From a virus, in the IMG/VR virus record IMGVR_UViG_3300021962_000479, positions 1 to 28,966 of that record: a stretch of DNA of 28,966 nt. The stretch is one strand, 5' to 3'. The notes beneath the pieces were generated by a model that did not search any database, had not been told where the DNA came from, and worked only from the letters and a program-made list of their open reading frames with translations. Below are positions 2,218 to 27,898 of the stretch, in pieces. Both the position numbers and the translations under genes were made by a program. Position 1 is the first letter of the stretch. Every line of letters begins with the position of its first letter.

Positions 2218-5200
2218 ATGGCAGCAGAAGACATTGTAATTGGTGTAAACGTACATGGAGAAGATAAACTCTATCGTTTAAGTAATGCTGTCAACCAATT
2301 AAATGCTGCACTTCTTAAGACAAAAAATCCTACACAAGCATTAAATGCTGCGAGTAGAGGTCTTTCTGCTGCTATAGGTTCAACTGGTCGTTCAATGAAC
2401 GATCATGCTAAGACAGTTACGCAAATGATGCGTAATCAGGCTGCCCTGAGCGCTGAATCAAAGAAGGTCGCTAGAGATATAGCAGATCTTAAGAAAAATA
2501 TTGCTCAATTAAGCGCTGAGGAAAAACGTGCTATTCCTCAAATGCAACAGTATGCTAAATCTCTGAATAGTATAAAAGCAAGAGCACTTGTTTCTGACTT
2601 AAAAGCAATTGCACAAGAGCAAAAACGACTTGGTAAGGATGCACAGTTCGTCGGTAGAAGCCTTATCATTGGTCTTACAACACCACTTGTTGGTATTGGA
2701 CGAATGGGTTTGCAATCACTTGTTGCAATTGATAAAGAATTTGTTCGTTTAAATAAGGTTCTTGAATCTGTTGCTCCTAATGCTGAAAAAGCAATGCAAA
2801 AACTTGGTGATGCTGCAACACCAGAGCGTGTTAATGCAATGGTTGATAGTTTTAATGAACTTGATAAGTCATTAGATTCTGTTAGCCAAAAATTTGGTGT
2901 TGCTAAGTCATTAGTTGTTGGTCTTTCTGCTGACTTCGCAGAACTTGGTGTTACTAATACAAAAAATATTGCAAAGTTAACAGAACTTACTGCTGCAACT
3001 GAAAAACTTGGTTCGATGGATATAAGTGCTGCACAAGATTTAGTGCAAAGCCTTTACTTCCAAGCAGTAAGATCATTTACATTATCTGGTCGTGAATTTA
3101 AGAATGCAATGGAGCGTGAACAGGCAGCTATTAATGCTGCTACCGCTCAGTTGAATATGTTCAACTTAGTTGAAAACACAACTGCTCTGACATTAAGAGA
3201 TCTCGGTGATGCATTCCCAGAAGTTGCTGCAGCAGCAACATCATTCGGTCTGTCAATGACAGAAGCAGCAGCATTGCTTGCTCCAATGAAAGCAGCTGGT
3301 TTCGAAATTGGTGCATCTGCTAACTCTATTAAGGTGTCTCTCCAGAGAGTTACAGCGCCTACAAAACAAAATGCTGACATGTTTAAACAACTCAGCAAAG
3401 AATATAATACTAACTTTGAATTAATTAAAGGCACTGGTCTTGATGCTATTCAGAACTTAATAAATGGTTTTAATGAATTAAGATCATCTGCTGCTGGTCA
3501 AGAAGGTGCTCTTGAATTCATGGCGAAAGTTTTCGGCGTTCGTCAAGGACCAAGAATGGAAGTTGCAATCCAACAGATGGCAGCTTTTGATAAAATATTA
3601 AAAGATGCCAATGCTAGCTCTGGATTAGCAGAAAAACAAATTCAAAAAATTGCTAATACAACTATTTCTTCAATGAATAAAGCAAATGGATCAACAATTC
3701 CACTCATTGATAGTTTTAAGAGCATTGGCATTTTAGCAAGAATCGCTACTGCTCAAGCTGGTCAAACTGTTGAAGATTTTGGAGTCGTTACTCAAAGAGA
3801 TATAGCAGCTGCTTTCGCTGCAAGAGAAGCGATTGGTAAACAAATTCTTGAAGCGAACAGAGAAGGTCGAGATTTAATTGCTGAAATAGGAACTGAAGCA
3901 GGTCGTGCAATGATCGTACAACTTGCTGGTGCAACTACAGCACAAGAAATTACAACAAGAGAATTAAATGCAGCCTTAGACAGTCTTGATACTCAAATTA
4001 ATATTATTAAAAATAATTTTAAACTTCTTGCTGCCGAACTCTTAGAAGGCATGAAGCCTGCCATTGAAAAAGTATCGGATTTAACAACAAAAATTATAAA
4101 CGCATTCAAGGCACTTGATCCAGAAACAAAGAAAATGATTTCTAATTTTGTTTTGTTTGGTGGAGCAACTGTCGCTGCGATTGGTCCACTCGTCTTTATC
4201 TTCGGTCAGGCAAGACTGGCTATGGGTGTTCTTGGCAAAGTCGCTCTTGGTTTGCTACCAAGTCTAAAAAATCTTACTGTTGCTCAAGTTGCTCAAGCAA
4301 GTGCAATGATGAGACTCAAGGCTCCTCTCACAATCATTAATGGTGTTGTCACAAATACAAATGGAAAATTTGCAACATTTATCGCCACACTTGCTAGTGG
4401 CGGTGGACCTCTCGGGACTTTTGCTAATAAAGTTGGAATGCTTACTGGTGTCTTAAAGAAGAGTGATACTGCTGGAATATCTTTGCAAAGAGCAGTAACT
4501 GCTGCTCAAACACAAGCAAATGCTACAAATCTTGGTACGAGTGCATTAACTGGTGCTATTGGTCCACAAGGCGCTACTGCTGCTGGTAGAGGCGCTCCTG
4601 CAAGACAAGTTGCTGCTATTGCTGCTAAAGCTGGGACTCCATTAAGAGTTGCTGGTAGATTTGCTAGTCCAGAACAAGTTGTCGCTGATGCATTAGCAAC
4701 AAGAGCACAAATGGTTCCTGGTCGTAATGTTATAAGAGGGCCGGGAGGAAGATTTAGAGCATTAACTGGATCTCAAAGAGCAAATATTAACTTATTATCT
4801 CAAGCCAATGTCGTTGCTGGTAGACAAAAGGCTCTAGAAGGATTGCAATCTGCTCCAAGTTTATTATTTGGAAGAGCAAAAGGCTTGGGTATATCTGATG
4901 CTGGTGATTTTACTCTTAAGGGTCGTGAAATATCTCAAGCAAGAGGACAGGCACTTGTTCGCGGTGGAGTCCGTGGAATGGCAGCCAGAGTCGCAGAGGC
5001 TCCTAGAGCAATTGGCTCTCGCATTGCATCTGGAGCAACAAATTTAGGCACATCTGTAAAAGGTCTTTCTGCAAAACCTGTTACTGCATTTAAGAATGCA
5101 ATAGACAATGCAAAGAATGCAACTAATGCATTAAGTACAAACTTAGGTAAGTTAGGAGCATCTCAGCCTGGAATATTTAGGAAAGCAATTACTTCTGTTA

Positions 5201-7878
5201 AAGGTTTTGCAACATCTTTTGGCCTTGTTACAAAAGCAATGCATTTAATGAAACTTGCTTGGATTGCAACAGGTATTGGTGCTGCCATACTTGCTGTTTC
5301 TGCAATTGTTTTTATTGTTGTAAAAAACTTTGATGAATTTAAAACAAAAGCAAAACCAGGAATTGATGCATTAAAGGGAGCATTTGATGCGTTAAAGAGT
5401 GGTGTCATGGCAATATTCCAACCATTTGTAAATTTGATTTCAATGATTGGGAGCGGTGGCAAACAAGGTGAGACTGGTGTAGGCGGAATCGCTTCAGCAT
5501 TCAATGTTCTTGCTGAAGTTGTCAAATTTGTTGCTAAAATTATTGAATTTGTATTCAAAGTAATAGGTAAAGTAATCACATACTTCCTTGGCAACTTTGC
5601 CTCAATATTCAGAGGCGTTACTAATATTGTCAAGGGTGTTTCTAGAATGCTTAAAGGTGATTTACTTGGTGGCTTTAAGCAAGCATTTGGTGGAATTATA
5701 AAAGCAGTATATGGGTTGCTCGGACCATTTAGAGCAGTATTTGACATTATCTTCTCAATTCTCACTAAATTTATGAAAGTAGCATCATTTGCATTTGGTT
5801 GGATTCCTGGTCTTGGTGGTGGAATTAAAAAAGCAGCCAAAGGAATGGAACAATTCCAGAAGTTTCTCAAAGATTCTACAAAGATTCCTAAAGCAGCACA
5901 GTCTGCTGGCAAACAAGGTATGGATAATGTCAAGAAAGAAACCTCTGATGCAGGAGAGGTTATGCAAGAAACCATATCTAATGCAGTCGGCAGTGGTATG
6001 GAAGAGGGCGCTGAGCAGGGTGGAAAGTCTTTAAAGAAGACAATCAAAGATGTAAAGAAAGAAATAAAAGAGGCAGCTCTTGATGCATTTGGCGAACAGA
6101 TGAAAGAGGCAGTCGGAAAAATTGTTGAAAACTTTGAAAAGCAAAAACAAGCAGCAATTGACGCAATAGATGTTCAAATTGAAACACTTGATAAACTTAA
6201 GGCTGCTGATGAGTCTCTTACGAAGACAAAAGAATTTGAAGCCAATAAGCGTGCAATTATTGAAGAAAGAGAACTTAATAGACAAAATTATGTTCGTAAT
6301 CGGGCTTTGGCAATTTATGAAGGTCGTATTGACGATGCAAGAATGCTCGGTCTTGAAGAAAGAAAATCAATTCAAGATAGTACTCGTCAGAAAGAGCAAC
6401 TTGAGGAATCAAGAAGAAGAGACCTTGCTCAAGAAAATTTTGAATTCTTAAGAAAATCAATTGAAGACACTAAGAAAGAAGCAGCAAAACTTTTTGATGA
6501 TGTAATTGATAAATTCCAAGAATCTGCTAAGAAAATTACTAAGTTCCCTCCAACCTCTATTGAGCAATGGAACAGCCAAATAAGAGATCTAACAAAGGCT
6601 GCCAATGATGGTGCTGTTGAAATTGAAACTGGATTTGGCACACTCTTTACTAATCTTGAAACAAAAATTAATACAGAAATGCCAAATAAGGCCGTTACTC
6701 CATTTACTAATAAATTGGATGAAATTGTCACGGAAGCCAAAAACAAGTATGGATTAGTAGATGAAAATACTGGAATTATTGGTGCAACACTTCAATTAAT
6801 TTCTGGCATTGGAGCAAAATTTGGTGGTGATACATCAATCAGTGAAAAATTCAATACAGGAGTACTGGGTGCTATAGATAGCACGATGTCTTCTTGGGCT
6901 AAAACAATGGTTGACATAACCGTTCCAAATCTTATGTCAAGCATTGGGACAGCCTTCTCAGAATTTACTGATGGTGAAGGACAATGGGCTAAGGCTGTTG
7001 AGGCAGGCTTGGCAGCCGTTACTTATGCATTTAATAGATCAATTGAAGAAATGAGAACAAAAGGTATTAAACTTACCGATGAACTCAAGACTTTAAGAAA
7101 GACATTTAACGAATTGGTTGGGAAAGAAGAAGGTGGCGCTGGAGGCGGTGGCGGTGGCACTGGAGGCGGTGGATTAGGTGATAGAACACCAGAGCAAGTT
7201 GCCGACTCTAGAAGACAGGCAAACCAAGGAAGTGCTAAATATATTGCTCTTAAAGATACAATAAAGGGTGTAATTGCTGGAACAACCAAGATAGGGGCAA
7301 GGGGTATTCGCGTCTCTTGGTTTGATGGTTCAAAACTTCACAATGCATCATATAATCAAACTCAATTAATGGTAGAGGCATTGGAAGAGGGTGTCCGTAC
7401 TAAGGGTTTGAACAAGTCAATTATTGCAGCAGAACTTGGTTTGAAAGCTGGTGGAAGTACTGCTAAAGGATTGAACAATTACTATTTCCCAATTAAAAAA
7501 TATTTTGGTGGAATGGTTCCAAAAATGGCTGTTGGCGGGTATGTTAATGGAGCAATGTCTCAATCAATCCCAGCATTGCTTCATGGCGGTGAATTTGTTA
7601 TAAGTGCTGCTGCTGTCAATAAGATGGGCATTGGTGCCCTTGAATCAATTAATAATATGAGATTCAAAAATCCAGCAATGTCGCAGCCAAAAGTTGTTAC
7701 AGAGAACTACTCAACACAGAATGTAAATATTTATGTTGATAACTTTATTGGTCAAGAGCAGTGGTTTGAATCAATGATGAAAGAATATAATGTTAAAGTT
7801 GTCCCAAGAAACCAAAAGGCTGCTGGTCTGGAGAATAGAGTTGTAAGAACTTATAATGGTATCAATAGAGGTATGTAA
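2218..7878 (+). CDS. Tape measure protein
   Basis: At 1886 residues this is the largest gene, in the canonical slot after the chaperone pair. The protein sets tail length and is ejected into the host during infection. The N-terminal region is helical and Ala/Lys/Gln-rich. Hydrophobic segments lie near residues 640-680, 1011-1040 and in a long cluster at about 1095-1210. A highly charged coiled-coil-like stretch runs at about 1268-1420. A polyglycine linker sits at about 1638-1655. The C-terminal part has the motif HGGEFV (about 1789), common near the end of tape measure proteins. I see no lysozyme or peptidase motif. By the usual 0.15 nm per residue the tail would be roughly 280 nm. The stop overlaps the next start (TAATG). 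Confidence 0.93.
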   Translation: MAAEDIVIGVNVHGEDKLYRLSNAVNQLNAALLKTKNPTQALNAASRGLSAAIGSTGRSMNDHAKTVTQMMRNQAALSAESKKVARDIADLKKNIAQLSAEEKRAIPQMQQYAKSLNSIKARALVSDLKAIAQEQKRLGKDAQFVGRSLIIGLTTPLVGIGRMGLQSLVAIDKEFVRLNKVLESVAPNAEKAMQKLGDAATPERVNAMVDSFNELDKSLDSVSQKFGVAKSLVVGLSADFAELGVTNTKNIAKLTELTAATEKLGSMDISAAQDLVQSLYFQAVRSFTLSGREFKNAMEREQAAINAATAQLNMFNLVENTTALTLRDLGDAFPEVAAAATSFGLSMTEAAALLAPMKAAGFEIGASANSIKVSLQRVTAPTKQNADMFKQLSKEYNTNFELIKGTGLDAIQNLINGFNELRSSAAGQEGALEFMAKVFGVRQGPRMEVAIQQMAAFDKILKDANASSGLAEKQIQKIANTTISSMNKANGSTIPLIDSFKSIGILARIATAQAGQTVEDFGVVTQRDIAAAFAAREAIGKQILEANREGRDLIAEIGTEAGRAMIVQLAGATTAQEITTRELNAALDSLDTQINIIKNNFKLLAAELLEGMKPAIEKVSDLTTKIINAFKALDPETKKMISNFVLFGGATVAAIGPLVFIFGQARLAMGVLGKVALGLLPSLKNLTVAQVAQASAMMRLKAPLTIINGVVTNTNGKFATFIATLASGGGPLGTFANKVGMLTGVLKKSDTAGISLQRAVTAAQTQANATNLGTSALTGAIGPQGATAAGRGAPARQVAAIAAKAGTPLRVAGRFASPEQVVADALATRAQMVPGRNVIRGPGGRFRALTGSQRANINLLSQANVVAGRQKALEGLQSAPSLLFGRAKGLGISDAGDFTLKGREISQARGQALVRGGVRGMAARVAEAPRAIGSRIASGATNLGTSVKGLSAKPVTAFKNAIDNAKNATNALSTNLGKLGASQPGIFRKAITSVKGFATSFGLVTKAMHLMKLAWIATGIGAAILAVSAIVFIVVKNFDEFKTKAKPGIDALKGAFDALKSGVMAIFQPFVNLISMIGSGGKQGETGVGGIASAFNVLAEVVKFVAKIIEFVFKVIGKVITYFLGNFASIFRGVTNIVKGVSRMLKGDLLGGFKQAFGGIIKAVYGLLGPFRAVFDIIFSILTKFMKVASFAFGWIPGLGGGIKKAAKGMEQFQKFLKDSTKIPKAAQSAGKQGMDNVKKETSDAGEVMQETISNAVGSGMEEGAEQGGKSLKKTIKDVKKEIKEAALDAFGEQMKEAVGKIVENFEKQKQAAIDAIDVQIETLDKLKAADESLTKTKEFEANKRAIIEERELNRQNYVRNRALAIYEGRIDDARMLGLEERKSIQDSTRQKEQLEESRRRDLAQENFEFLRKSIEDTKKEAAKLFDDVIDKFQESAKKITKFPPTSIEQWNSQIRDLTKAANDGAVEIETGFGTLFTNLETKINTEMPNKAVTPFTNKLDEIVTEAKNKYGLVDENTGIIGATLQLISGIGAKFGGDTSISEKFNTGVLGAIDSTMSSWAKTMVDITVPNLMSSIGTAFSEFTDGEGQWAKAVEAGLAAVTYAFNRSIEEMRTKGIKLTDELKTLRKTFNELVGKEEGGAGGGGGGTGGGGLGDRTPEQVADSRRQANQGSAKYIALKDTIKGVIAGTTKIGARGIRVSWFDGSKLHNASYNQTQLMVEALEEGVRTKGLNKSIIAAELGLKAGGSTAKGLNNYYFPIKKYFGGMVPKMAVGGYVNGAMSQSIPALLHGGEFVISAAAVNKMGIGALESINNMRFKNPAMSQPKVVTENYSTQNVNIYVDNFIGQEQWFESMMKEYNVKVVPRNQKAAGLENRVVRTYNGINRGM

Positions 7879-8282
7879 TGCCAGATACATATATTATAAG
7901 TTTATTCTCAATTAATGGAACTGAAATTACAGAGCATAATAGAAGATATAGTGGTGGACAAACTATTAATGCATCAGATGTAGAATTAGATGCTGGTATT
8001 AATAAAAGATATATAAAGAAGAACAAAGAAAACTTCTCTATATCATTTTCTTACTTACCTAATTCTGCAAATAAAACCGTCGATGGCAGAGTCGCCAGAG
8101 ATTTTCTTAAAACAGTTGCAGAAACTCCGGGTAAAAAGACGATACTTATAAAACTCTCTCCCGTTGATCCAGTCAAGACTCTTTTATCATATGTATCTTC
8201 TTATAATGAAACTCTTATTAAAAGAGAAGTTGATCAAGAATGTGCTTACTATGATGTAACTATTTCTTTTGAGGAAGCATAA
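7878..8282 (+). CDS. Minor tail protein, single-domain (distal-tail-like position)
   Basis: A 134-residue protein right after the tape measure gene, where distal tail or baseplate-ring proteins are encoded. Its fold recurs as the C-terminal domain (about residues 598-738) of the next gene product. Shared features in order are a short strand then a Gly and a His/Arg-Arg motif (HNRRYSGG versus NHGRRSST), a KRYIKK/SRYYKK motif, a strand followed by P-N-A/S, T-V-D-x-R-x-A-R-D, and a final acidic strand ending in EEA. This implies ring or collar packing near the tail tip. No enzymatic motif is seen. AGAGG precedes a TAATG junction with the tape measure stop. A Dit-like role is inferred from position. 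Confidence 0.6.
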   Translation: MPDTYIISLFSINGTEITEHNRRYSGGQTINASDVELDAGINKRYIKKNKENFSISFSYLPNSANKTVDGRVARDFLKTVAETPGKKTILIKLSPVDPVKTLLSYVSSYNETLIKREVDQECAYYDVTISFEEA

Positions 8283-10498
8283 TGTCAAATCAATTTAGAT
8301 TTAATATAAGCGAACCTTTTAAGAGTGGTATTGACTTTTTTGGTCTCCCTACAAATATAGTAGAAGCACAGGCATCATTATCAGCAGAATCTAATGTAAC
8401 AGTATCTGCTATAGAGATTGCATTCGCATCATCTGCAAATTCAGTAGAAAGTAATGTTACTGCATCTGCTATTGAAATATTGTATGCAACAACTTCTATT
8501 GCAATTGACGGTGCAACAGTTGTTGTTTCTTTGGAAGAAGCATTAGCAAGATCCAATATAGCAATAACTTCCAATGCTCAAATTTCTGCTTATGAAATAC
8601 AATATGCTTCATCTCAAGTAAATATTGATAGTTCTCTGACTGTTACTGCTCTTGAGATTAATTTTGCCAACTCAAGCATATCTATAGATTCTAATGTTTC
8701 AACCTCAACGTCTAAAGACGCATATGCAACATCAAACCCAAGCGGAAATTCAAATACATCAGTTTCTGCTATGGAAATATTGTACGCCCTGTCTTCAGTA
8801 GCGATAGATGGTGCTGTTGTAACAGTTTCTCTTGAAGAGGCTCTGGCTAGATCAAATATTTCTATTGATTCTAATGTCCAAGCAACTGCTTATGAAATCT
8901 TGCATGCTTCATCAACAGTGGCAATAACTTCAAATGTTGATACAACAGCACTAGAGATTTTGTTTGCCAATATTAGTATTGAAAGTGATACTAAGTTTAG
9001 CGTTAGAGGCACGGAGATATTGTTTGCAAATATCAACATTTCTCCTTCTGCTTCTGTATCAACTTCTGCTATTGAAATACTCTATGCTACAACATCTATT
9101 GCAATTGATGGTGCAACAATAGTTGTTTCACTGGAAGAGCAACTCGCAAGATCAAATGTATCTATTAATACATCTGTTCAAGTTTCTGCTTATGAAATTC
9201 AATATGCTTCTTCTTCTATATTAATTGACGGTGCGACAGTAACAGTTGCTCAAGAAACACTGTTTGCTTCTATAAGTATATCGATTGAATCAAGTGTTTC
9301 ATCTAATTCAATGAAAGATGCATATGCTAATACATCTATTAGTGGAGATGTTTCTGCTTCCATCTTCGCTAGAGAAATTGTATTCTCTTCTTCTTCTATT
9401 GCAATTGATGGAGCAACTGTTACTGTTGCATTTGAAATATTGTTTAATTCAACATCAATATCGATAACATCAGATGTGCAATCTAGTGCTTACAAAATTG
9501 CATATGCAAGTGCAAATCTTGATTGTGATGGAGCAACGGTTACTCTTGCTCAAGAAATTCAATATGCTCAAATTAGCATATCACCTTCATGTAATACAAC
9601 AACATCAGCAAGCAAGATTGCTTATGGTTCAATAGATGAAGGTGTTGGCGCACTTGGTGGTGACATAGAAGTAACCGCAATAAAGATTGCTTATTCTAAT
9701 GCTTCTTTGTCGTGTGATGGTGCAACTGTAACTGTTGCTTTGGAAGAGGTGTATGCAAAGTGCGGTATAGCAATTTCATCCGATGTTTCTACAACAGCTT
9801 ATGAAATTCAATATTTAAGTTCATCAATTAATATCAGTTCGTCTGCCATTACTGTTGCTGGCGAAGTCCAATACGGGTCTGCGACTGCTGAATCAACGTC
9901 ATCGGTCACAACTTCTGGTACAAGAATGCAACTTGCATCTGTTGTTATCATAAGCATTTCTACGAATGTTGTTGTTGGAAAAGAAATTCTTTACGCAAAA
10001 ATCTCTACTTCTGGTCTTAAAGCATCAGTTCTTACTACGGCCCTTAAATTCGCAGTCTCAGACATCGTTGATGATTCATTCTTTAAGACTTTGTACTTGC
10101 TTGATGGGAAGCCACTTACAAATCATGGAAGAAGATCCTCAACAGATGTTAATCAAGTATTTGTTGAAAATAGAAACTGGAATGCTCAAAAATCAAGATA
10201 TTACAAAAAAGTATCTACTGCTGGGAGAAGGTCTTTTAATTTAAGTTGGTCAAATGTTCCTAATGCCCGATACGATACAGTAGATTATAGATATGCCAGA
10301 GATTACATCAAGAAGTTGGCTGAAGATCCAGATGTACATACTTTGACAATTTTAAATGATAATTCAAATGGTACAACGCCATATACAGAAACAACCTATA
10401 ATGTATATATAAGAGATTATTCTGAGACTCTGGTTAGAAGAGACATATCTAATGATATATACTTATGGGAATGTAATTTATCATTGGAAGAGGCATAA
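8282..10498 (+). CDS. Repeat-built tail fibre-like protein with a C-terminal minor-tail domain
   Basis: A 738-residue protein in three parts. Residues 1-29 form a short leader. Residues about 30-591 are about 28 consecutive units of almost exactly 20 residues with a consensus like SIAIDGATVTVAxEIxYA. Residues about 598-738 are a domain homologous to the whole preceding gene product. The repeat alternates small/polar and Ile/Val residues, as beta-strand arrays do; one unit per rung of a beta-solenoid or a chain of small beta modules is plausible. Cysteines are few and no catalytic motif is visible. The C-terminal domain probably anchors the protein to the tail and the repeat projects or packs as a fibre. 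TAATG junctions join it to both neighbours; the final EEA codons supply the next ribosome-binding site. Confidence 0.75.
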   Translation: MSNQFRFNISEPFKSGIDFFGLPTNIVEAQASLSAESNVTVSAIEIAFASSANSVESNVTASAIEILYATTSIAIDGATVVVSLEEALARSNIAITSNAQISAYEIQYASSQVNIDSSLTVTALEINFANSSISIDSNVSTSTSKDAYATSNPSGNSNTSVSAMEILYALSSVAIDGAVVTVSLEEALARSNISIDSNVQATAYEILHASSTVAITSNVDTTALEILFANISIESDTKFSVRGTEILFANINISPSASVSTSAIEILYATTSIAIDGATIVVSLEEQLARSNVSINTSVQVSAYEIQYASSSILIDGATVTVAQETLFASISISIESSVSSNSMKDAYANTSISGDVSASIFAREIVFSSSSIAIDGATVTVAFEILFNSTSISITSDVQSSAYKIAYASANLDCDGATVTLAQEIQYAQISISPSCNTTTSASKIAYGSIDEGVGALGGDIEVTAIKIAYSNASLSCDGATVTVALEEVYAKCGIAISSDVSTTAYEIQYLSSSINISSSAITVAGEVQYGSATAESTSSVTTSGTRMQLASVVIISISTNVVVGKEILYAKISTSGLKASVLTTALKFAVSDIVDDSFFKTLYLLDGKPLTNHGRRSSTDVNQVFVENRNWNAQKSRYYKKVSTAGRRSFNLSWSNVPNARYDTVDYRYARDYIKKLAEDPDVHTLTILNDNSNGTTPYTETTYNVYIRDYSETLVRRDISNDIYLWECNLSLEEA
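8369..10055 (+). repeat. Tandem coding repeat: 60-bp unit nested in a 300-bp super-unit
   Basis: The 20-residue (60-bp) units keep strict register from residue 30 to about 450, with one insertion of about three residues near 452-460. Every fifth unit matches best: units with DGATV and SLEE/ALEE recur at residues about 71, 171, 271, 371 and 474, each followed by a unit ending in AYEIxYA or AYKIAYA. Super-units start near 8432, 8732, 9032, 9332 and 9632. The string TCTGCT occurs at 8465, 8765 and 9065, exactly 300 bp apart, and DNA around 8465 and 9065 is visibly near-identical, pointing to amplification of a multi-unit block. Confidence 0.88.
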
Positions 10499-13400
10499 TG
10501 CAGACTACTGGTTTATATGGAAAAACATTATCAAATACATTTAATTCTGCTACTACTGCCTATGCACAAAAAGTAAAGCCTAGAGTTATTATTGATCTAC
10601 TTGATAGTAGGCATTTAGATAATCTTACGGTTACCACAAATAGTGCTCATGGTAATACTTCAAAAGGCTCATACGGATACTATTTCTCTCCTAATCAATT
10701 GGTTAATGGAGTTGAAAGACAGTCATTTACTTGGGCTGTGACGGGCGCGAAAGATAATCGCGGTCAGGTTATAAAAGCAGATGGAAACTGGCACTGCATG
10801 CCATCTTCAATTGATAGAGGCTATGAGTTTGGATGGTCTTCTGCATCAATAAGCAATGCTAATACTCATGCAACATATTCATCTGAGTACGGATTTGCTA
10901 CAGATCCATATGTAGAAATTCAATTCACACAGAGAAAAGTAAATAAGATAAGAATAATCACATCTGAATTTAGCGGTCAAATTGGTCATTATACAGTTGT
11001 TGCTTATAACCAAACGTATTCAGCTGTTCTAAATGAGGTTGGCTACATCCAGCCAGGAACTTATTATCAAGATCACTGGATTTCACCAGCGGTAGTATCA
11101 CAAGATATTTATAGAATTCGTGTGACTATTCATACAACTAAAAATAAGCAAGACTATGCGAGAATCCAAGAAATTTGCCCCATCTATGAATATGATATAA
11201 CAAATTATGTTATTGATTCAAGTCTTGATAGAGTTAGGGATATTCATGAATCAAGTTTGCCAATTGCTGGAAGCGGTTCTTCGACTTTATCAATAAATTT
11301 TGATAATACAGAGAAAGATTTTAATTTATTTAATTCAAATTCAACATTTGGTAAATATATGAAAAAAGATTTAAAAATTCATGTATATTACGGCTGGAGA
11401 ATAAAAAAGACCGAAGATATATTATCTAACACAATATTAAAGGCAAATATAAATTCAAGCGCAGGAACTATAACTGTAGATGATACTAATATATTCCCAG
11501 ACGGTGGAGCAAATAATTATTACACTATATTTATTGATAAAGATACTCAGTCAGAAGAAATTGTATTAATTAGTCAAAAAACAGATGACAAAAATCTTCA
11601 AGTATCACAAAGAGGTTATGGAGGCACTACAGCAAAAAGTCATACAACAGGAGCAACTGTTACTTTTGATCCATATGAATATGTATTCTTTGGGACATTT
11701 TATGTAGACGAATGGTCTGCTACCTCATCTTCAATGACAGCCAGCGTATCTGCTGCTGACTGGACTAAATTTATGAATGAGAAAACCATTGAGAATGGTT
11801 TCTTCATGCAAAATGTTACTGTTGGAAAAGCAGTTGAAAATTTGTTGATGGAAACAAACTTTCCAAAAGCTGATTATAAATATCTTAAGAAATTTGAGGA
11901 TGGTGCTAAATTAAATAACGCAATTCTTCACATGGCTTTCAATGAACCAACTGTTGATAGAAGTGGAAATAATATCGTCCCGTCTACTGGACTTAGAGCA
12001 AGATTTTGGGCAATGCCTGAAAATAATTATGCTGGGGTAAAAGATATCTTAGCAGATGCAATAGATAAGCAATTATCACCGTTAGATCTTGCGCAGGGTT
12101 TAAAACCTTTTGTGTCACCTACATATAATGCTCTTACAAAAGATATATCAACAGCTGGATATTCAGTTGATATATCTAATTATTCTTTCACAGTAGGTAG
12201 TGATACTTATACTGAATACTTTAATGGTGTATTTGATGGATACTATATTCCAAAAGATGGCGGAACACAAGAAATAGTTATATATATTAAATTTGGCGGT
12301 GTAAGGGTTTATTTAGATGATACATTGATAATAGATGAATGGTTAATGCACCCTACTTCTGGCGGTTCTTTAACAAGAATCGGTTCTTCTGATTATTTAG
12401 GCTATGATTTAAATCTTGATGCTGGTGTCCCATATAAAATAAGAATTGAATTCTTTCATTCCTACGGTTCTTCTGGCAATGATCTCTTTAGTATTGAATT
12501 AGCAAAATCAGTAAATGGTGCAGCAGATGAAACAATACTGGATACAGAGTGTACAACAATTGTTGCGTTTGATTCGATAGGATCAAGAAATGCTGGATTT
12601 GCATCTGGAGTTAAAAATAGAAATCACCATAGAAATAATGGTATATATATAAATACCCCAGTGCTGGGATCGCCTACTGGTTTAGTATCAGATCCTAATA
12701 ATAAAAGCGTTTCTTTGCAGAATAATTCTTATATAAGAATACCTAATGATATCTCTTGGAGACTGGCTAATACATCTTCTGCTAACTATACAAATGAATT
12801 TACTATAGAAGCATATGTCAAATTTAATAATGGAGTATTTGCTTCTGATGGTGAATATATAAGTTGTTTATCTTTGACAAGTGGTTTTGCATTATATGCA
12901 AATTCTTCTGGTCATGGATTTAAATTAAATGTTTCATCATATACTGCTAATATTTTTACAAATACAGCACTTTCAACAACTGAATTCACACATATTGTTG
13001 CTACAAACAAAGATGGAAATATTAAATACTATGTGAATGGCGAACTTAAAGCATCAGACAATGCAGGTTCTGGTAAAACGAACTGGTTATCCGATATTAC
13101 AATTGGAGGGAAAGGGGCAAGTTTCGTTAATGGATCTGGAGAGAGTCCACCTGCAACATTCACTCCATTTATTATTGATGAATTTGCTATATACAATAGG
13201 GAACTTACAGAAGAACAAATTAAAACTAGATATACTGAAACACAGATGCAACCAATAACAGTTTTCCCATTTCTTTATGGAAATAACGAAACTGTTAAAA
13301 ATATTGCTGACACAATTACGTTGGCTGACTTTGGTAGACTTTTTATAGACGAACAAAACTATGCTAAATATGAGCACTTCTATAGATTCTTTGAAACTTC

Positions 13401-14376
13401 AATTGATCAACATGCAAATGTTCAAGCATCAATAAGTGGTGACAGTAATATTATATCTGCCGATTACGCAGTCCAATTGCAAACAAATAAGGTTACTGTA
13501 AAAGTTGCTGGCTTAGCCTCAGTTGTAAATGGAACGCAATCTCTGTGGAGAGCAAATGATCCTACAATTCTTACAGTTGTAGAACTTATACAAAATATGT
13601 CAAACTCTCAGACATCAATGTATGTTGCTTCGACGGATGAACCGCCTTTCCCAAAGACTGGTTATCTTAAGATTGATAATGAAATAATTAAATATAACGA
13701 TAAGAATTCAAACCAGTTTCTGTCCTTGGAAAGAGGTCAATTTGCAACAACTCCTGCTACCCATACTGCTAACACTAAAGTAAGAGAAGTAAGATACTTC
13801 GATGTGCAGTTTGATAAAGCTCCTGCTTATAACATAAAGTCTCCATTTATTACTGGAATTTTGTTTGAAGATCCAGCACAAATTGAAATACATAAGGCTG
13901 AATTTGGAGCATATGGTGGTGAACTTATAATTGCTGCTTCAAACAATATTGCTTCTGGTGAATATGTATTTGCGGAAGGAACAAACCCTCTGACAAATAA
14001 GGTTGCATTCACTTCTATTGCTGGAATACCTGTCGTAACAACGGAGCAGAATGATCAGGTAAAAGAGCAAAAAGCGGCACTAGATGTGAATATAAGAAGA
14101 TACGGATTGAAGGATCTGGTCATTGAAAATCCATACATTGTTGATGCTGTTCATGCTCAGAAAATAGCAGATTTTATTATTTCTAAAATGGCAGAACCCG
14201 TGCCTATTTTGAATGTTCAAACAATGGCTCTACCTAAAATTCAACTGGGGGATAGAATAAGAATATCTTCATTGTCTTCTTTTGATATAATAAATGCAGA
14301 CTATTGGGTTGTGTCTCACTCTCTTGGATTCGGTGACACATTGACACACACCCTTACTTTAAGGAAGGTTGTTTAA
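10498..14376 (+). CDS. Large tail hub / tip protein with PA14-like and LamG-like modules
   Basis: A 1292-residue multidomain protein. Residues about 1-230 are a beta-rich module. Residues about 230-460 and about 1100-1292 look like the split hub of tail-tip proteins, the end (IQLGDRIRISSLSS, then YWVVSHSLGF) being typical of Tal/gp27-type hub domains. Inserted between are a PA14-like module (about 497-680, with ARFW, EYFNGVFDGYYIP and VRVYLDDTLIIDEW) and a LamG/concanavalin-like module (about 720-912, with FTIEAYVKF, YVNGEL and IIDEFAIYNREL). Both module families commonly bind carbohydrate. Two copies of a short motif ending in RG-x(6-8)-H (about 341-390 and 1055-1095) flank the insert. It likely sits at the tail tip and contacts host glycans. 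TAATG junctions on both sides. Confidence 0.75.
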   Translation: MQTTGLYGKTLSNTFNSATTAYAQKVKPRVIIDLLDSRHLDNLTVTTNSAHGNTSKGSYGYYFSPNQLVNGVERQSFTWAVTGAKDNRGQVIKADGNWHCMPSSIDRGYEFGWSSASISNANTHATYSSEYGFATDPYVEIQFTQRKVNKIRIITSEFSGQIGHYTVVAYNQTYSAVLNEVGYIQPGTYYQDHWISPAVVSQDIYRIRVTIHTTKNKQDYARIQEICPIYEYDITNYVIDSSLDRVRDIHESSLPIAGSGSSTLSINFDNTEKDFNLFNSNSTFGKYMKKDLKIHVYYGWRIKKTEDILSNTILKANINSSAGTITVDDTNIFPDGGANNYYTIFIDKDTQSEEIVLISQKTDDKNLQVSQRGYGGTTAKSHTTGATVTFDPYEYVFFGTFYVDEWSATSSSMTASVSAADWTKFMNEKTIENGFFMQNVTVGKAVENLLMETNFPKADYKYLKKFEDGAKLNNAILHMAFNEPTVDRSGNNIVPSTGLRARFWAMPENNYAGVKDILADAIDKQLSPLDLAQGLKPFVSPTYNALTKDISTAGYSVDISNYSFTVGSDTYTEYFNGVFDGYYIPKDGGTQEIVIYIKFGGVRVYLDDTLIIDEWLMHPTSGGSLTRIGSSDYLGYDLNLDAGVPYKIRIEFFHSYGSSGNDLFSIELAKSVNGAADETILDTECTTIVAFDSIGSRNAGFASGVKNRNHHRNNGIYINTPVLGSPTGLVSDPNNKSVSLQNNSYIRIPNDISWRLANTSSANYTNEFTIEAYVKFNNGVFASDGEYISCLSLTSGFALYANSSGHGFKLNVSSYTANIFTNTALSTTEFTHIVATNKDGNIKYYVNGELKASDNAGSGKTNWLSDITIGGKGASFVNGSGESPPATFTPFIIDEFAIYNRELTEEQIKTRYTETQMQPITVFPFLYGNNETVKNIADTITLADFGRLFIDEQNYAKYEHFYRFFETSIDQHANVQASISGDSNIISADYAVQLQTNKVTVKVAGLASVVNGTQSLWRANDPTILTVVELIQNMSNSQTSMYVASTDEPPFPKTGYLKIDNEIIKYNDKNSNQFLSLERGQFATTPATHTANTKVREVRYFDVQFDKAPAYNIKSPFITGILFEDPAQIEIHKAEFGAYGGELIIAASNNIASGEYVFAEGTNPLTNKVAFTSIAGIPVVTTEQNDQVKEQKAALDVNIRRYGLKDLVIENPYIVDAVHAQKIADFIISKMAEPVPILNVQTMALPKIQLGDRIRISSLSSFDIINADYWVVSHSLGFGDTLTHTLTLRKVV

Positions 14377-16169
14377 TGGCTAGAAGTAGATCTTCAATAA
14401 CAACTGGTACAACAGAAAATAATATTTATTTCTATCCAGCAGGAGGTCACTCTCACGATGGCCAAAATTCATCATTAATTGATGCAACAAAGTATTCTGT
14501 ATATGATTTTAATTTTGGGTATATAAGTGATAATCCTGTCAGAAGACAGTTTCAAATAAATAGTTTTGAATCTCTTAAACAAGTAATTAGAGATACAGTT
14601 ACAGATTCTGTTTTAGCACCAGCTGGTATTGTTCTCCAGCCTAATACTTTAAATGGAGCAACAATAATTGCTAGAACTATAGAAGCAACACAAATTGTTG
14701 CCAATAGCATAACAGCAAATGAACTTGTATCCAATATTATTCTTGTCAATAATACAATAAGAAGTTCTAACTATTCCGCTGGTTCTAATGGGTGGATTAT
14801 TACTAATACAGGAACTGCTGAATTTAATAATGTTACAGTAAGAGGCACAATAATATCTTCTAACGGTACAATTGGTGGATTCACTCTTTCATCTAATACA
14901 TTAAATGCTGGATCTGGCTCTGACCAGATAACAATTTCTACTGGTACCTATAATGCTAATTCAAACCCAGATGAAATAGTTATAGGTATTGGTGGACCAT
15001 TGTCAAATGGCTATTCTTTACCTTTTGCTGTTAATTCAAGCGGTGTCTTATCTGTCGTCGCAGCAACAGTCGGACCTCTTCAATTAGATGCAACTGGTTT
15101 TACAAGTGAATATGCTAATGCTACTAATTATTTTAAATTACAAAACTTTGGTGATCTTTTAATAAGATCTAATCCATCAGTTGGTGTTCATACTAACCTA
15201 TATCACCAAACACAAGTTGTTGGCGAATATGTTCTTATTCAAAGAACAAATAGTTCTTGGACTCCTTCTAATAGTGAAGTTTTTATTGGTTATTATGATA
15301 ATACTAATAATCCACAAATATATTTAGCCAATAGTACTGGAACAATTAATTTCCAAGCATATGCTAACGGTACTGTAAATGGAACAAGTATAAATTTTGG
15401 TTCATCTACACGGCAGATGATAAATCTTTGGTCAACATCTTATGGTATAGGTATTCAAAATTCAACACAATACTTTAGATCTGGAGCAAGATTTTCTTGG
15501 TATACAGGTGGTTCTCATAGTGACACTGAAAATGATCCAGGTTCTGGTGGCACCAGATTGTTAACTCTTACAAGTGGTTCCTTAAGACTCTACAGTGGAC
15601 AATTTGAATATTTTGATGGTTCCTATGTTAGAAGTAGATTAAATTTTAATTCGTTACTGTTTTTTTCGGTAACTGGAGCTCAAAAATCAGAATATGCTGT
15701 TGGTGGTTTTTATGTCGATTCTGGTTATGTTGTTGGTAACTTCTCTGTTGGAGGTACAAAAAGTTTTAGAATACAACATCCTTTATATGAAAACAAAATG
15801 CTTGTCCATGCTTCACTGGAAGGTCCAACAGCAGATGTTTTCTATAAAGGACAATCAAAATTAATAAATGGTGAAATAGAAATAATACTTCCAGAATATT
15901 TTGAAAGTCTTACAGACGAAAATCAAAGAATTGTTATGATTACGCCAATAGTAAATGACGCATCTCAGACGTTCATAGCGTTAGGTGTTAGTAAAATACA
16001 GAATGGAAAATTTAAAGTTTACAGTCAAGAAAATTCAATTAATCAAAATCAAGAATTTTATTGGATAGTTCAGGCTACAAGAAAAGATGTAGAAATGGAA
16101 GTCGAACCGTATAAAAATACTTATGATTTAAGAGCTTCTAATGTTGAAAATACTAACAATGGAGTATAA
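14376..16169 (+). CDS. Tail fibre / tip protein
   Basis: A 597-residue protein with AAGGAAGG upstream and a TAATG junction. The N-terminal part carries GGHSHDGQNSSLID, a motif seen in phage tail proteins, then isoleucine-rich repeats (ATIIARTIEATQIVANSITANEL) and VTVRGTIISSNGTIGGFTL, typical of the trimeric shaft of central tail fibres. The middle (about 200-450) is Asn/Ser/Gly-rich and beta-strand-like. The C-terminal part (SFRIQHPLYENKMLVHASLEGP, split here into SFRIQHPL and LVHASLEGP) matches a terminal module common in marine and cyanophage fibres and often found next to intramolecular chaperone domains. No S74 peptidase motif is visible. Likely function is host recognition. Confidence 0.75.
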   Translation: MARSRSSITTGTTENNIYFYPAGGHSHDGQNSSLIDATKYSVYDFNFGYISDNPVRRQFQINSFESLKQVIRDTVTDSVLAPAGIVLQPNTLNGATIIARTIEATQIVANSITANELVSNIILVNNTIRSSNYSAGSNGWIITNTGTAEFNNVTVRGTIISSNGTIGGFTLSSNTLNAGSGSDQITISTGTYNANSNPDEIVIGIGGPLSNGYSLPFAVNSSGVLSVVAATVGPLQLDATGFTSEYANATNYFKLQNFGDLLIRSNPSVGVHTNLYHQTQVVGEYVLIQRTNSSWTPSNSEVFIGYYDNTNNPQIYLANSTGTINFQAYANGTVNGTSINFGSSTRQMINLWSTSYGIGIQNSTQYFRSGARFSWYTGGSHSDTENDPGSGGTRLLTLTSGSLRLYSGQFEYFDGSYVRSRLNFNSLLFFSVTGAQKSEYAVGGFYVDSGYVVGNFSVGGTKSFRIQHPLYENKMLVHASLEGPTADVFYKGQSKLINGEIEIILPEYFESLTDENQRIVMITPIVNDASQTFIALGVSKIQNGKFKVYSQENSINQNQEFYWIVQATRKDVEMEVEPYKNTYDLRASNVENTNNGV

Positions 16170-19558: not shown

Positions 19559-19841
19559 CTGGAAAGATTTCGCGCTCTGCTCGTCTAGTCATCCTACAAA
19601 TTATTGGTTCTCTTCTAAGAAAGAAGATATTGATATTGCAAAGTCTATTTGTGCAAAATGCACAGTAAGACTTGAATGCTTTTTTACAGCATGGGATAAT
19701 GACAGCCATTATGGTGTGTACGGCGGTGTCAGCGAATACGAATATCTTCTGTTAACATGGAAGGAGGCAAAAAGTGAGTCAGAAGATAACAGGGACAGAA
19801 CTGATAAATGTCTTCAAAAAATGTTGCGACACATCGCATAA
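19542..19841 (+). CDS. WhiB-like Fe-S transcription factor
   Basis: A 99-residue protein from GTG 19542, chosen because AGGA stands eight bases upstream; an ATG at 19431 in the same frame would lie inside the previous gene. The four WhiB cysteines are present: Cys13, then C-x2-C-x5-C at Cys37, Cys40, Cys46 (ICAKCTVRLEC), followed by GVYGG (58-62), the form of the GVWGG turn. The family binds a [4Fe-4S] cluster and the housekeeping sigma factor, and is an actinobacterial hallmark. Phage copies such as WhiB of TM4 interfere with host WhiB regulation and septation. The tail beyond residue 75 is charged and overlaps the next gene by 68 bases. Confidence 0.85.
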   Translation: MKFKSNWKDFALCSSSHPTNYWFSSKKEDIDIAKSICAKCTVRLECFFTAWDNDSHYGVYGGVSEYEYLLLTWKEAKSESEDNRDRTDKCLQKMLRHIA

Positions 19842-20085
19842 ATTATTTATACCAGACTCACCTCGTCAAGAATCTGTTGCAGATGCTCTTGTAGAACACT
19901 ACAATGCAGATATCATTACACAAGCAGTAAAGAGATATGTTGCCAGCAAACCTGGCCCTTTTCTTGTATTTGATTTTGCTGTTGATTCAAGGACATACGT
20001 TGAGATAGTGAAAAAAGAGCAAGCATCAGTTAATAAATTTAAAGATATCGTACAGGAAACAAAGAAGAGATTGGCTGAGGAATGA
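19774..20085 (+). CDS. Candidate helicase loader / replisome organiser
   Basis: A 103-residue protein with GTG start and a full AAGGAGG (19761-19767) six bases upstream, which fixes the start inside the WhiB gene. It is helical: PRQESVADALVEHYN, DIITQAVKRYVA, KPGPFLVFDFAVD, then a Lys-rich end. Its size and its place directly before, and overlapping (ATGA), the DnaB-type helicase recall loader proteins such as SPP1 G39P, which deliver the helicase to origin complexes. No nucleotide-binding motif is present. The function is inferred from context only. Confidence 0.5.
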   Translation: MSQKITGTELINVFKKCCDTSHKLFIPDSPRQESVADALVEHYNADIITQAVKRYVASKPGPFLVFDFAVDSRTYVEIVKKEQASVNKFKDIVQETKKRLAEE

Positions 20086-21299
20086 ACTACGAAGTAAGGC
20101 TTTTGAACTCTATTATTGATAGCGGTTCATATGTAGAAGCCGTTAACGGTGGTGCTGAAAATGTATTCATAGAACACCGTGATATATGGAACTTCATTGT
20201 GTCTCACTATGATTCACACTCAAAAGTTCCATCCAAGGAAACTGTAAAGCAACACCATCCAGAATTTGAGTTTCTTTCTACACCAGAGCCTATTGGCTAT
20301 TATCTAGATGAGGCAAAGAAAGAATCACTTTCTTATCAAACAAGAGTTATCGTATCAAAAGCCAATTCTCTACTTAATGAAATTGGTCCAAAAGATGCTC
20401 TTAACTTCTTGATGGAAAATACATCAAGGCTTTATAAGTATTCAAGCAACTTAAAAGATACAGATCTTGTCGGTGAATGGAAAGACCGTTTTGTAGATCT
20501 TCAAGAAAGATCTCTACGAGATAAAAATGAATTGCAAGGAATTCCTAGCGGTATCAAGGTAATTGATAAATCATTTGGCGGTTGGCAACCGGGAGACTTT
20601 GTTGTTCTACTTGGCTGGACTGGCGTTGGTAAATCATTCATTGCCAGACTCTTTGCAGTTAACGCTTGGAAGGCTGGCTACAGACCTTTGATTATCTCTC
20701 TTGAGATGAATAAGTTACAGGAAGGACAGCGCCTTGATACCCTGCTTAATAACGGCGAGGGGCATTTTACAAATACAGACTTGGTAAGAGCCAACCCCGC
20801 TGTTGTAAAAAGTTATGAGTCATGGGCTGAAAGAACTTTTGCAGGTAAACATTCAATTCATCTTGTTACATCTGAGGGTCTTGAAACTGCTGACCAAAAC
20901 ATGGTTCAGGCAAAGATTGACCAATATCATCCAGACCTAGTGATTCTTGATTATCATGGCTTATTTGATGATGCAAGCGGTGCTAGAAATGAAACAGAAA
21001 AAGCAAAGAACCTTTCGAAAGCTTTTAAGCGTATGGCTGTTAAAAATGGTGTTCCCATCATTGACGTAGCAGCAGTAACGATGAGTGAAGGTCATTCTGA
21101 AAGACCGCCCGAACTTGAAGAGGTTGCTTGGAGTAAGCAGTTGGCTTACGATGCCGACTTAGTGCTTGCTATTCACCGTGAATATAACTCTGATTTATTT
21201 CAGGTTGTATCTAGAAAAGTTAGAAGATCTACACAATTCGGTTTCTACTTAAGGTGGAATCTTGAGACAGGAAAGTGGTCAGAAGAATGGGACATCTAA
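20082..21299 (+). CDS. dnaB: DnaB-type replicative helicase
   Basis: A 405-residue protein with a DnaB/RecA-type core: GGWQPGDFVVLLGWTGVGKS with Walker A at residues 178-185, ISLEM (about 205-209), Walker B VILDY at 287-291, and a C-terminal KVRRS/GFYLRWN segment. The N-terminal domain (1-145) is shorter and more divergent than in cellular DnaB but helical. The hexamer unwinds DNA ahead of the fork and normally recruits primase. It sits in a run loader, helicase, small protein, primase. The ATG overlaps the previous stop (ATGA). Confidence 0.88.
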   Translation: MNYEVRLLNSIIDSGSYVEAVNGGAENVFIEHRDIWNFIVSHYDSHSKVPSKETVKQHHPEFEFLSTPEPIGYYLDEAKKESLSYQTRVIVSKANSLLNEIGPKDALNFLMENTSRLYKYSSNLKDTDLVGEWKDRFVDLQERSLRDKNELQGIPSGIKVIDKSFGGWQPGDFVVLLGWTGVGKSFIARLFAVNAWKAGYRPLIISLEMNKLQEGQRLDTLLNNGEGHFTNTDLVRANPAVVKSYESWAERTFAGKHSIHLVTSEGLETADQNMVQAKIDQYHPDLVILDYHGLFDDASGARNETEKAKNLSKAFKRMAVKNGVPIIDVAAVTMSEGHSERPPELEEVAWSKQLAYDADLVLAIHREYNSDLFQVVSRKVRRSTQFGFYLRWNLETGKWSEEWDI

Positions 21300-21472
21300 A
21301 AAGAAAATCAATTTCTGGGGAAGCAAAGGATATCGAAACTATTGTACGATTGAGACCTTGGATTGAAGATGAATCAAGGAAAATGTACGGAAGTTTTACC
21401 AAGACAGATTTGATTACAGATTATGATGCTAAAGCAGATATATTCAAGTTCAAACTTATATTTCATCAGTAA
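21287..21472 (+). CDS. Small protein of unknown function between helicase and primase
   Basis: About 61 residues from ATG 21287, which overlaps the helicase stop; AGGAAAG (21269-21275) is 11 bases upstream. A GTG at 21275 in the same frame would add four residues but has no ribosome-binding site. The sequence is basic then mixed (KDIETIVRLRPWIEDESRKMYG), likely helical. The frame is uninterrupted and its stop lies one base before the primase ATG, so it looks like a real operon member. No family recognised. Confidence 0.55.
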   Translation: MGHLKRKSISGEAKDIETIVRLRPWIEDESRKMYGSFTKTDLITDYDAKADIFKFKLIFHQ

Positions 21473-21473
21473 T

Positions 21474-22367
21474 ATGGAAGAAGAAATTCGTGAACTTTTT
21501 AATAGTCACGGTATAGAAATTTGCTCTGAAGCAGGCGATGAGTTAAATATCTATTGTCCTTTCCATAAAAATATCCACAGTCCAGCATTTTATGTAAACA
21601 AGAAAACTGGTTTGTGGCAATGCTTTAATCCATCTTGCGGAGAAAAGGGAAACTTTAGGAGGCTGTACCGACAGATTGCTGGCAAGCCTTACCATAAAGA
21701 TTCTAAACTAGATCCTGTTGCTCTATCTAAAGAAATTGATGCAGGTTTTCGTAAAAATGAGATTAAAGATGAACTTGATATTGATTCAATCTTTATTGAT
21801 TATTCAGATCATGAACAGTTTGGGAAAATGTCAACATTTACGTCTAGGGGCTTAAGTGTTGAGACAATGAAGTATTTTGAATTGGGTTTCTCTAAAGTTA
21901 AAAATAGAATTGTCATTCCAGTTAGAAATCATCATTATAAAGTAGTTGGTTTCATTGGTAGAGCAATTACAGCAGACCAAGAACCTAGATATTTATATAA
22001 TAAAGGCTTCAAGCGTGCCAATGTCTTATTTAACATTCAGAATGCAAAAGCATACCCATCATGTATAATTGTAGAAGGCAGTGTTGATGCAATGATGGTT
22101 CACCAAGCTGGTTTCCCAAATGTAGTGGCAACTCTTGGTGCTCAAGTATCAGAGTATCAAATTAAATTAATCAAAAAATATTTTGATGAGGTCATCATCT
22201 TTTCAGACAACGATGAGGCTGGAATGGCGATGGCTACTGCTATAATGAACTCTTGCCTAGGTAAAAAGATATCTGTGGCAAAAATCCCTGACGGTAAAAA
22301 AGACCCAGGGGAGATGAGTAAAGAAGAAATAACAAATTCAATTAACAACAAAACACAAACAATATAG
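21474..22367 (+). CDS. dnaG: DnaG-type primase
   Basis: A 297-residue protein. It begins at ATG 21474, one base after the previous stop; a longer reading from 21423 is open but overlaps coding sequence. A zinc-binding head has Cys28, His31, Cys50 and Cys55 (YCPFH then CFNPSC, with C-x4-C where cellular primases have C-x2-C). A TOPRIM domain has IVEGSVD (Glu201) and FSDNDEAG (Asp245, Asp247). It makes RNA primers for the lagging strand. It lacks the C-terminal helicase-binding domain of bacterial DnaG, giving about half the cellular length, as is common in phages. There is no clear ribosome-binding site, so coupling is likely. Confidence 0.88.
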   Translation: MEEEIRELFNSHGIEICSEAGDELNIYCPFHKNIHSPAFYVNKKTGLWQCFNPSCGEKGNFRRLYRQIAGKPYHKDSKLDPVALSKEIDAGFRKNEIKDELDIDSIFIDYSDHEQFGKMSTFTSRGLSVETMKYFELGFSKVKNRIVIPVRNHHYKVVGFIGRAITADQEPRYLYNKGFKRANVLFNIQNAKAYPSCIIVEGSVDAMMVHQAGFPNVVATLGAQVSEYQIKLIKKYFDEVIIFSDNDEAGMAMATAIMNSCLGKKISVAKIPDGKKDPGEMSKEEITNSINNKTQTI

Positions 22368-22375
22368 GAGATAAC

Positions 22376-23026
22376 ATGGCATTTCAATCAATTAAAACAT
22401 TAAAAGACTTAGAAAAGAACGTAGTTCAGGCACCAAAAAGCGGTGGTAATGCGGTTAAGAAGTATTTCAGCCTTTCTGCTGGAGATTCCTACCGTATTCG
22501 TTTCCGTCAGGAGTTGACTGAAGATTCAAAGTTCTACGACGAGAAACTGGGCACTGGAATTACTGTCCCAGTTATTACATCACCGATTAACTGGAAGTGG
22601 CGAGTTGCGTCAACTGCTGGACTTGAGAAGTTCAATTACCGTTGTTGGGCAACAGAGCAGTCTGTTACGGATAAGGGCTGGAGACCAAAGCCTCACTTGT
22701 TGATCAACATTGCTGTTGAGACAGAGCCGGGAACTTGGGAAGCCCGTGTCCTTGACACTACATTTAATCAGCGTCATATCGGTCTTTTGTTGATTGAATA
22801 CGCAAAGGAATTTGGAACAATTACAGATCGTTATTACAAGTATTCTCGTACTGGTACTGGTGCATCTGACACAAACTACAGCCTTATCCCTCTTGAAAAG
22901 GCTGAAATGCCCAAGACCATTGAAGAGCTTCCTCTTCATGATCTTGAGAGCATGTATTTGACTCTTCCTTATGAGAAGCAGCAAATTTTCTTGACTACTG
23001 GCGAACTTGCAAAAGACCAGTGGTGA
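22376..23026 (+). CDS. Candidate ssDNA-binding protein
   Basis: A 216-residue protein with AGGAG (22366-22370) overlapping the primase stop, five bases before ATG. The N-terminal half (KKYFSLSAGDSYRIRFRQEL) then CWATEQ and GWRPKPHLLINIAVE suggest an OB-like beta core with aromatic and basic residues suited to DNA contact, and the slot between primase and polymerase often holds the phage's SSB. There is no acidic C-terminal tail of the bacterial SSB kind, and I see no classic zinc site. A strong hairpin follows. The strong ribosome-binding site agrees with a protein needed in large amounts. Another replication accessory is possible. Confidence 0.55.
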   Translation: MAFQSIKTLKDLEKNVVQAPKSGGNAVKKYFSLSAGDSYRIRFRQELTEDSKFYDEKLGTGITVPVITSPINWKWRVASTAGLEKFNYRCWATEQSVTDKGWRPKPHLLINIAVETEPGTWEARVLDTTFNQRHIGLLLIEYAKEFGTITDRYYKYSRTGTGASDTNYSLIPLEKAEMPKTIEELPLHDLESMYLTLPYEKQQIFLTTGELAKDQW

Positions 23027-23036
23027 TTCTGTAAGC

Positions 23037-23064
23037 AAGGCGGGGGTGTAAAAACCCCCGCCTT
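23037..23064 (+). terminator. GC-rich 11-bp hairpin after the candidate SSB gene
   Basis: AAGGCGGGGGT (23037-23047) pairs perfectly with ACCCCCGCCTT (23054-23064), loop GTAAAA. It stands out as a GC block in AT-rich surroundings, in the 54-base gap between two genes. No T tract follows (the next bases are CTACTG), so it may act as a partial terminator, an mRNA 3'-stabiliser or a processing site. Confidence 0.65.
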
Positions 23065-23080
23065 CTACTGAAAGGTTCTA

Positions 23081-27897: not shown

Positions 27898-27898
27898 T

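Follow-up and report, generated by a model that had tools for sequence, protein, structure and literature searches.

A tail protein with an array of 20-residue repeats and a predicted tail-tube-fold domain in putatively aquatic actinophages

In a stretch of viral DNA of 28,966 nucleotides (IMG/VR record IMGVR_UViG_3300021962_000479, positions 1 to 28,966; hereafter the window), an intact open reading frame on the plus strand (8282..10498), also found in relatives, encodes a 738-aa protein made of three parts: a 30-residue N-terminal cap, an array of 20-residue units, and a C-terminal domain of about 144 residues. The reading that we favour, with moderate confidence, is that this is a tail-tip ring protein of an aquatic actinophage, in which the C-terminal domain has a tail-tube fold and the array is a repetitive beta arm for contact with the host surface or an adhesin. 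It is drawn from the paralogy with the preceding gene, the single-copy minor tail homologue of the Stanwilliamsviridae and the matches to tail-tube proteins; from the fixed gene position, the spread in length from 0 to 28 units and the constraint at unit positions 13-18; and from the conservation of the cap and the ring domain, which far exceeds that of the array, together with the adhesion-type domains encoded downstream. Against it stand the pLDDT of the array (about 30-70), the absence from it of a recognised carbohydrate-binding module (CBM), the existence of a clade without the array, and the reversed order of the termini.

The gene lies in the tail module, between the genes of the tape measure and a ring protein on one side and that of a large hub on the other. 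Upstream are the 1886-aa tail tape measure protein (2218..7878; PF10145, E 1.7e-11; PHROG tape measure, E 2.5e-28) and a 134-aa single-domain, ring-type minor tail protein (7878..8282). Downstream are a 1292-aa minor tail or hub protein with PA14 and LamG domains (10498..14376; PF13385, E 1.6e-16; PF07691, E 3.1e-9; phrog_10359 minor tail, E 7e-26) and a 597-aa tail tip or fibre protein (14376..16169; PF09327 Phage_Tail_Tip, E 6e-6), all four on the plus strand. In the hub, PA14 and LamG occupy the middle and only the C-terminal 200 residues or so match Streptomyces phages. The tape measure gene contains a short Gly-rich tandem repeat, GGTGGCACTGGAGGCGGTGGC (window 7132-7172). Window positions 20082-28966 hold a replication block with a DnaB-type helicase, a DnaG-type primase, a phage DNA polymerase III alpha subunit and RecA, as well as a glycosyltransferase gene that runs off the window end.

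A WhiB-like gene (19560..19742, plus strand; PF02467, E 9.5e-16) is present in the window, and such a gene was found in all ten of the longer relatives searched. WhiB is described as exclusive to Actinobacteriota and as an indicator of actinophages (PMC10202952); thus, we regard the group as actinophages. The nearest homologies to isolates are with phages of Streptomyces, Gordonia and Rhodococcus. The GC content of 37% would suit aquatic actinobacteria, and from this low value and the absence of the group among soil isolates we infer an aquatic origin.

The C-terminal domain (residues 595-738; 10064..10495, plus strand) explains the protein. The sequence-only reading began at the array and passed over this domain, and with it the paralogy that links the domain to the 134-aa protein encoded by the preceding gene (E 1e-18, 31% identity). 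In AlphaFold2 models of a 356-aa relative and of the window protein, the domain mostly had a pLDDT of 60-92 (ten-residue blocks), and the model matched a homogeneous group of tail-tube and tube-like chains with VIA Z scores of 8-9.9 over 115-125 aligned residues (80alpha 6v8i, Z 9.5-9.9; SPP1 6yeg, Z 9.1; RcGTA 6tba, Z 9.0-9.3; lambda 7t2e, Z 8.5-8.7). The tail-tube or Hcp-like beta-barrel fold was therefore found on a predicted structure, and the C-terminal domain is predicted to have the tail-tube fold. SPP1 gp17.1, lambda gpV, the RcGTA tube, Hcp and baseplate initiators share this predicted fold; they showed no sequence similarity to the domain in a PDB search and lack the 20-residue repeat arm. 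Foldseek against the PDB gave no match below E 1e-3, and PDB sequence searches returned just weak, unrelated matches (Kit receptor, phosphorylase). The Pfam matches to DAC and AGH (E 0.006-0.03, below the cut-off) were set aside as chance.

Among isolated phages, tblastn with the whole protein found no match, whereas the C-terminal domain alone did match; the array thus masks the kinship. The homologue is a Stanwilliamsviridae protein annotated as minor tail protein (Mildred21 gp213, Sham gp37, and a 131-aa protein of Yaboi), which is 26-32% identical to the C-terminal domain and to the 134-aa neighbour, with tblastn E values down to 2e-5 for the domain and 9e-7 for the neighbour. In BFVD, the 131-aa Streptomyces phage Yaboi protein was the second-best match of the C-terminal domain (E 1.9e-10). 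In these Streptomyces phages the homologue occupies the same site after the tape measure gene, but as one copy without a repeat arm, in the order tape measure, single ring-type protein of 134 aa, hub.

At the other end, the N-terminal cap (residues 1-30, MSNQFRFNISEPFKSGIDFFGLPTNIVEAQ; 8282..8371, plus strand) is conserved and carries the family motif YSFSEPLxSGIDFY, which is missing from the class without an array represented by locus L027. Two close relatives of the window protein were found, at 79% (L001) and 66% identity. The cap has no amino-acid change between the window and L001, while pS is 0.29.

The sequence-only reading had counted about 28 repeats of 20 residues, and segmentation with a family-derived profile agreed: 28 units span residues 31-593, with one slip of +3 residues near residue 451. 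The exact register that it had reported over 400 residues holds for units 1-21 (residues 31-450; 8372..9631), as seen by autocorrelation and segmentation. A net 3-residue register shift at units 21/22 (9632..9640, place approximate; segmentation offset 23 residues) is common to the window protein, L001 and L002, and is followed by the seven more divergent units 22-28 (residues 454-593; 9641..10060; segmentation and lag analysis). All of these features are on the plus strand, as are the DGATV units below. In the BLOSUM autocorrelation of residues 31-600, all of the twelve highest peaks lay at multiples of 20, while shuffled sequences gave -0.37 +/- 0.08. The peak at 100 residues (1.32) was the highest, followed by those at 40 (1.10), 200 (0.95), 60 (0.90) and 20 (0.88); a peak at 100 above that at 20 was the sign of a five-unit super-repeat named beforehand.

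Identity between units five apart was 0.435, compared with 0.307 when unit order was permuted (z 5.5, p 5e-5; 20,000 permutations), and between units ten apart it was 0.408 (p 1.5e-4); no other lag was significant in this test of the window array. The lag-5 signal was still significant without the DGATV phase (p 3e-4). The proposed 100-residue super-repeat is thus present but is not uniform: lag-5 identity drops from 0.8 to 0.2 over the length of the protein. Strong periodicity is limited to roughly units 2-15, with clear block copies at units 2-5, 7-10 and 12-15, and fades toward the C terminus. A DGATV unit does recur at every fifth position as claimed, at unit 3 (residues 71-90; 8492..8551) and, in phase, from residues 171, 271, 371 and 474 (8792-8851, 9092-9151, 9392-9451 and 9701-9760), but there are extra, out-of-phase copies from residues 311 and 411 (9212-9271 and 9512-9571). 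The recurrence of DNA landmarks at 300 bp is reflected in a raw DNA autocorrelation peak there (0.478; mean 0.27). The lag-5 signal and three near-copies of units 2-5 also support the proposal that five-unit block duplication lengthened the arm in the window lineage.

These 60-bp and 300-bp repeats in the DNA might suggest a fast-changing, strain-variable contingency locus produced by recent DNA slippage. Such a locus should show near-identical DNA repeats and copy-number variation at the strain level, and we found neither. Where lag-5 positions share an amino acid, the same codon is used in 0.475-0.50 of cases compared with about 0.46 expected from codon usage; since synonymous codons are nearly randomised between copies, the block duplications are old, and the copies are old protein-level repeats. 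Tandem Repeats Finder detected no array at the window gene, and L001 retains all 28 units at 79% identity. Read-level variation in copy number, suggested earlier as something to look for, is unlikely because, in 76 phage pairs whose hubs share at least 90% identity, the repeat proteins never differed in length by more than one residue. We therefore reject recent slippage, and consider a contingency locus extremely improbable.

The family comprises 87 distinct proteins from IMG/VR viral contigs, collected in scans with the hub and the C-terminal domain; a hub scan of genome contigs found no relative, and hence neither a prophage nor a misbinned host contig. In nearly all readable relatives the gene sits between a gene for a protein of 131-139 aa and the hub gene (about 1300 aa). 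In L040 (5050-7999), a 684-aa repeat protein has an extra Gly/Ser-rich N-terminal stretch of about 150 residues, and the gene before it encodes a Gly-rich protein of 279 aa in place of the 131-139 aa ring protein. Array-like units were absent from the other open reading frames of the loci, the one high score being the window gene, truncated in L004. Family proteins are 166 (no array), 253-280, 329-336, 351-360, 441-455, 534-599, 684 or 738 aa long, the window protein and its L001 relative being the longest, so that unit number varies among related phages, as had been anticipated, from 0 to 28. The 166-aa clade (L027, L028, L041 and L055) shows that the array is dispensable in at least one lineage; the L027 protein (640-1140), which like the other three has neither array nor N-terminal motif, may be ancestral or may have lost them. 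On a FastTree phylogeny of the hubs, in which 20 of the 74 inner branches have weak support, at least 16 changes of length class are needed, the 351-360 aa class occurs in both main halves of the tree, and length differences begin below 90% hub identity. Arm length is thus constant within species and ranges from 0 to 28 units between species.

The total length is tightly conserved in much of the family (54 of 87 proteins are 351-360 aa) although the sequence is not, and the conservation of both ends would suit a docking site for each. One possible explanation is an internal structural collar, in which the units stiffen the tail tip by packing, like a sleeve or scaffold, on the ring, the tube end or the hub, with lengths that track the neighbouring baseplate parts; accessory shells anchored on Dit are known from mycobacteriophage baseplates (PMC13252515). 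However, hubs of similar size (1292-1294 aa) adjoin both the 738-aa and the 166-aa proteins, and a fitted sleeve would poorly tolerate such an expansion and such a loss. Furthermore, the array evolves much faster than the ring domain and the cap. A collar is accordingly conceivable but unlikely. There was no hint of a link between array and tape measure length among the complete tape measures (1876-1950 aa beside proteins of 166-441 aa; 1886 aa beside the 738-aa protein); most relatives' tape measure genes are cut by locus ends.

The sequence-only reading proposed a regular rod. In AlphaFold2 monomers the array has beta-strand character, with about two strands per 20-residue unit, which is the part of the proposal that stands; the regular rod itself was not recovered, the pLDDT of the array being low in both models (about 40-70 for the window protein, about 28-56 for the 356-aa relative). 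The array models matched beta-helix tailspikes and fibres (VIA Z 9-12.8, 4-10% identity), a resemblance that may be generic, and SufB/SufD; as the coordinates are of low confidence, we take these likenesses as a hint only. The tailspikes of P22 and Acinetobacter phages and the fibre of Agrobacterium phage 7-7-1, which form repetitive beta-helix stacks, are among those that the models resemble, but the window protein is without an enzymatic domain.

The low pLDDT in both models and the Ser/Thr/Ala-rich composition of the array would also suit a flexible, low-complexity linker with beta propensity but without a fixed fold, which spaces the cap from the ring. Exact register over 21 units and purifying selection are not expected of a linker: between the window and L001, dN/dS was 0.175 in the array (a rough value, with an array dS of 1.1), 0.034 in the ring domain and 0 in the cap. 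In addition, change within the units is strongly uneven. Unit positions 15-16 (Glu/Lys-Ile) were changed in none of the 28 units, and only 16 of 168 sites at positions 13-18 were changed, compared with 131 of 392 elsewhere (heterogeneity p 7e-6). A linker is therefore, in our view, very unlikely. Disorder had been named beforehand as the outcome that would speak against a rod; the low-pLDDT model is compatible with it, whereas the selection on the array and its unchanged positions argue against it. As judged from the sequence comparison, the uneven constraint is consistent with units that fold as beta structures, the second strand of each being fixed and the rest free to vary. The array is a genuine repeat within a family of tail proteins, old and under selection.

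Five-unit blocks are not confined to the window lineage. A lag-5 period is also seen within the 554-aa L023 protein (p 0.001), where units 3, 8 and 13 are DG units, and in the 441-aa L032 protein lag 5 is nominally significant (p 0.024), with p 0.08 in its close relative L083 (both uncorrected for several lags). The DG units are 70-90% identical within the window protein and 50-70% within L023 but 37% between them, and this greater likeness within than between suggests that the block duplications in the two proteins may have been independent. It could be imagined that the array has a new beta-fibre fold whose structure genuinely repeats every 100 residues, and that separate lineages (the window; L023; less surely L032/L083) grew by five-unit blocks with the DG unit in phase (units 3, 8, 13 and so on) since the fibre surface repeats every five units and only such steps stay in phase; we regard this as quite doubtful.

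Tail-tip ring proteins with an added module are known. The evolved distal tail proteins (evoDit) of siphophages, such as Gp28 of Deep-Purple and Gp16 of phage J-1, are ring proteins with an added, less conserved module that aids adsorption; in most cases this module is a CBM inserted centrally, an N-terminal position being rare, and Dit has a C-terminal part of its own (PMC9128512). In mycobacteriophages, the baseplate has a 6:6:3 tube-Dit-hub core with accessory modules anchored on Dit (PMC13252515). In the window protein, by contrast, the addition is an N-terminal array of 20-residue units; the likeness to evoDit is by analogy. Searches of Pfam and sequence families recognised no carbohydrate-binding domain in the array, and with respect to a peripheral CBM or a galectin/OB fold, no CBM-type domain was found by sequence, the repeat array being the only addition. 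Neither the window protein nor 33 relatives matched a Dit family in Pfam or PHROG, and because the added part also differs, we reject assignment to Dit or evoDit. The family as a whole is without a Pfam or PHROG assignment, and in the literature library searched, no tail protein of a phage was described as having a repeat of 20 residues. The general type, a ring protein that carries a host-contact module at its periphery, is already known, and the N-terminal 20-residue array is a new form of it.

According to the ring-and-arm reading that we favour, the C-terminal domain most likely makes up a ring, or becomes part of one, where the tape-measure end of the tube gives way to the PA14/LamG hub. 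The domain would have arisen by duplication of the single ring protein that is still encoded alongside, and the duplicate would then have gained the N-terminal arm. One copy per ring subunit would place a set of arms around the tail tip. Each arm of 28 beta-rich units, ending in the conserved cap, would project outward, and would most likely position the cap, show its own fast-evolving faces to the host surface or to accessory adhesins, or both, with the number of units setting the size of the arm. Tail-fibre arms are usually anchored by their N terminus and touch the host with the C terminus; the order in the proposed arm would be the reverse.

These results suggest that the arm is a tunable device for reach or contact in finding the host cell. 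They point to a route by which the duplicate of a tail-tip ring protein may have acquired a long arm, constant in length within species but reset between them, in a setting of abundant, little-cultured aquatic actinophages. Arms of 0, about 4, 9, 12, 18 and 28 units in one gene position would provide a natural series for testing the role of arm length in adsorption.
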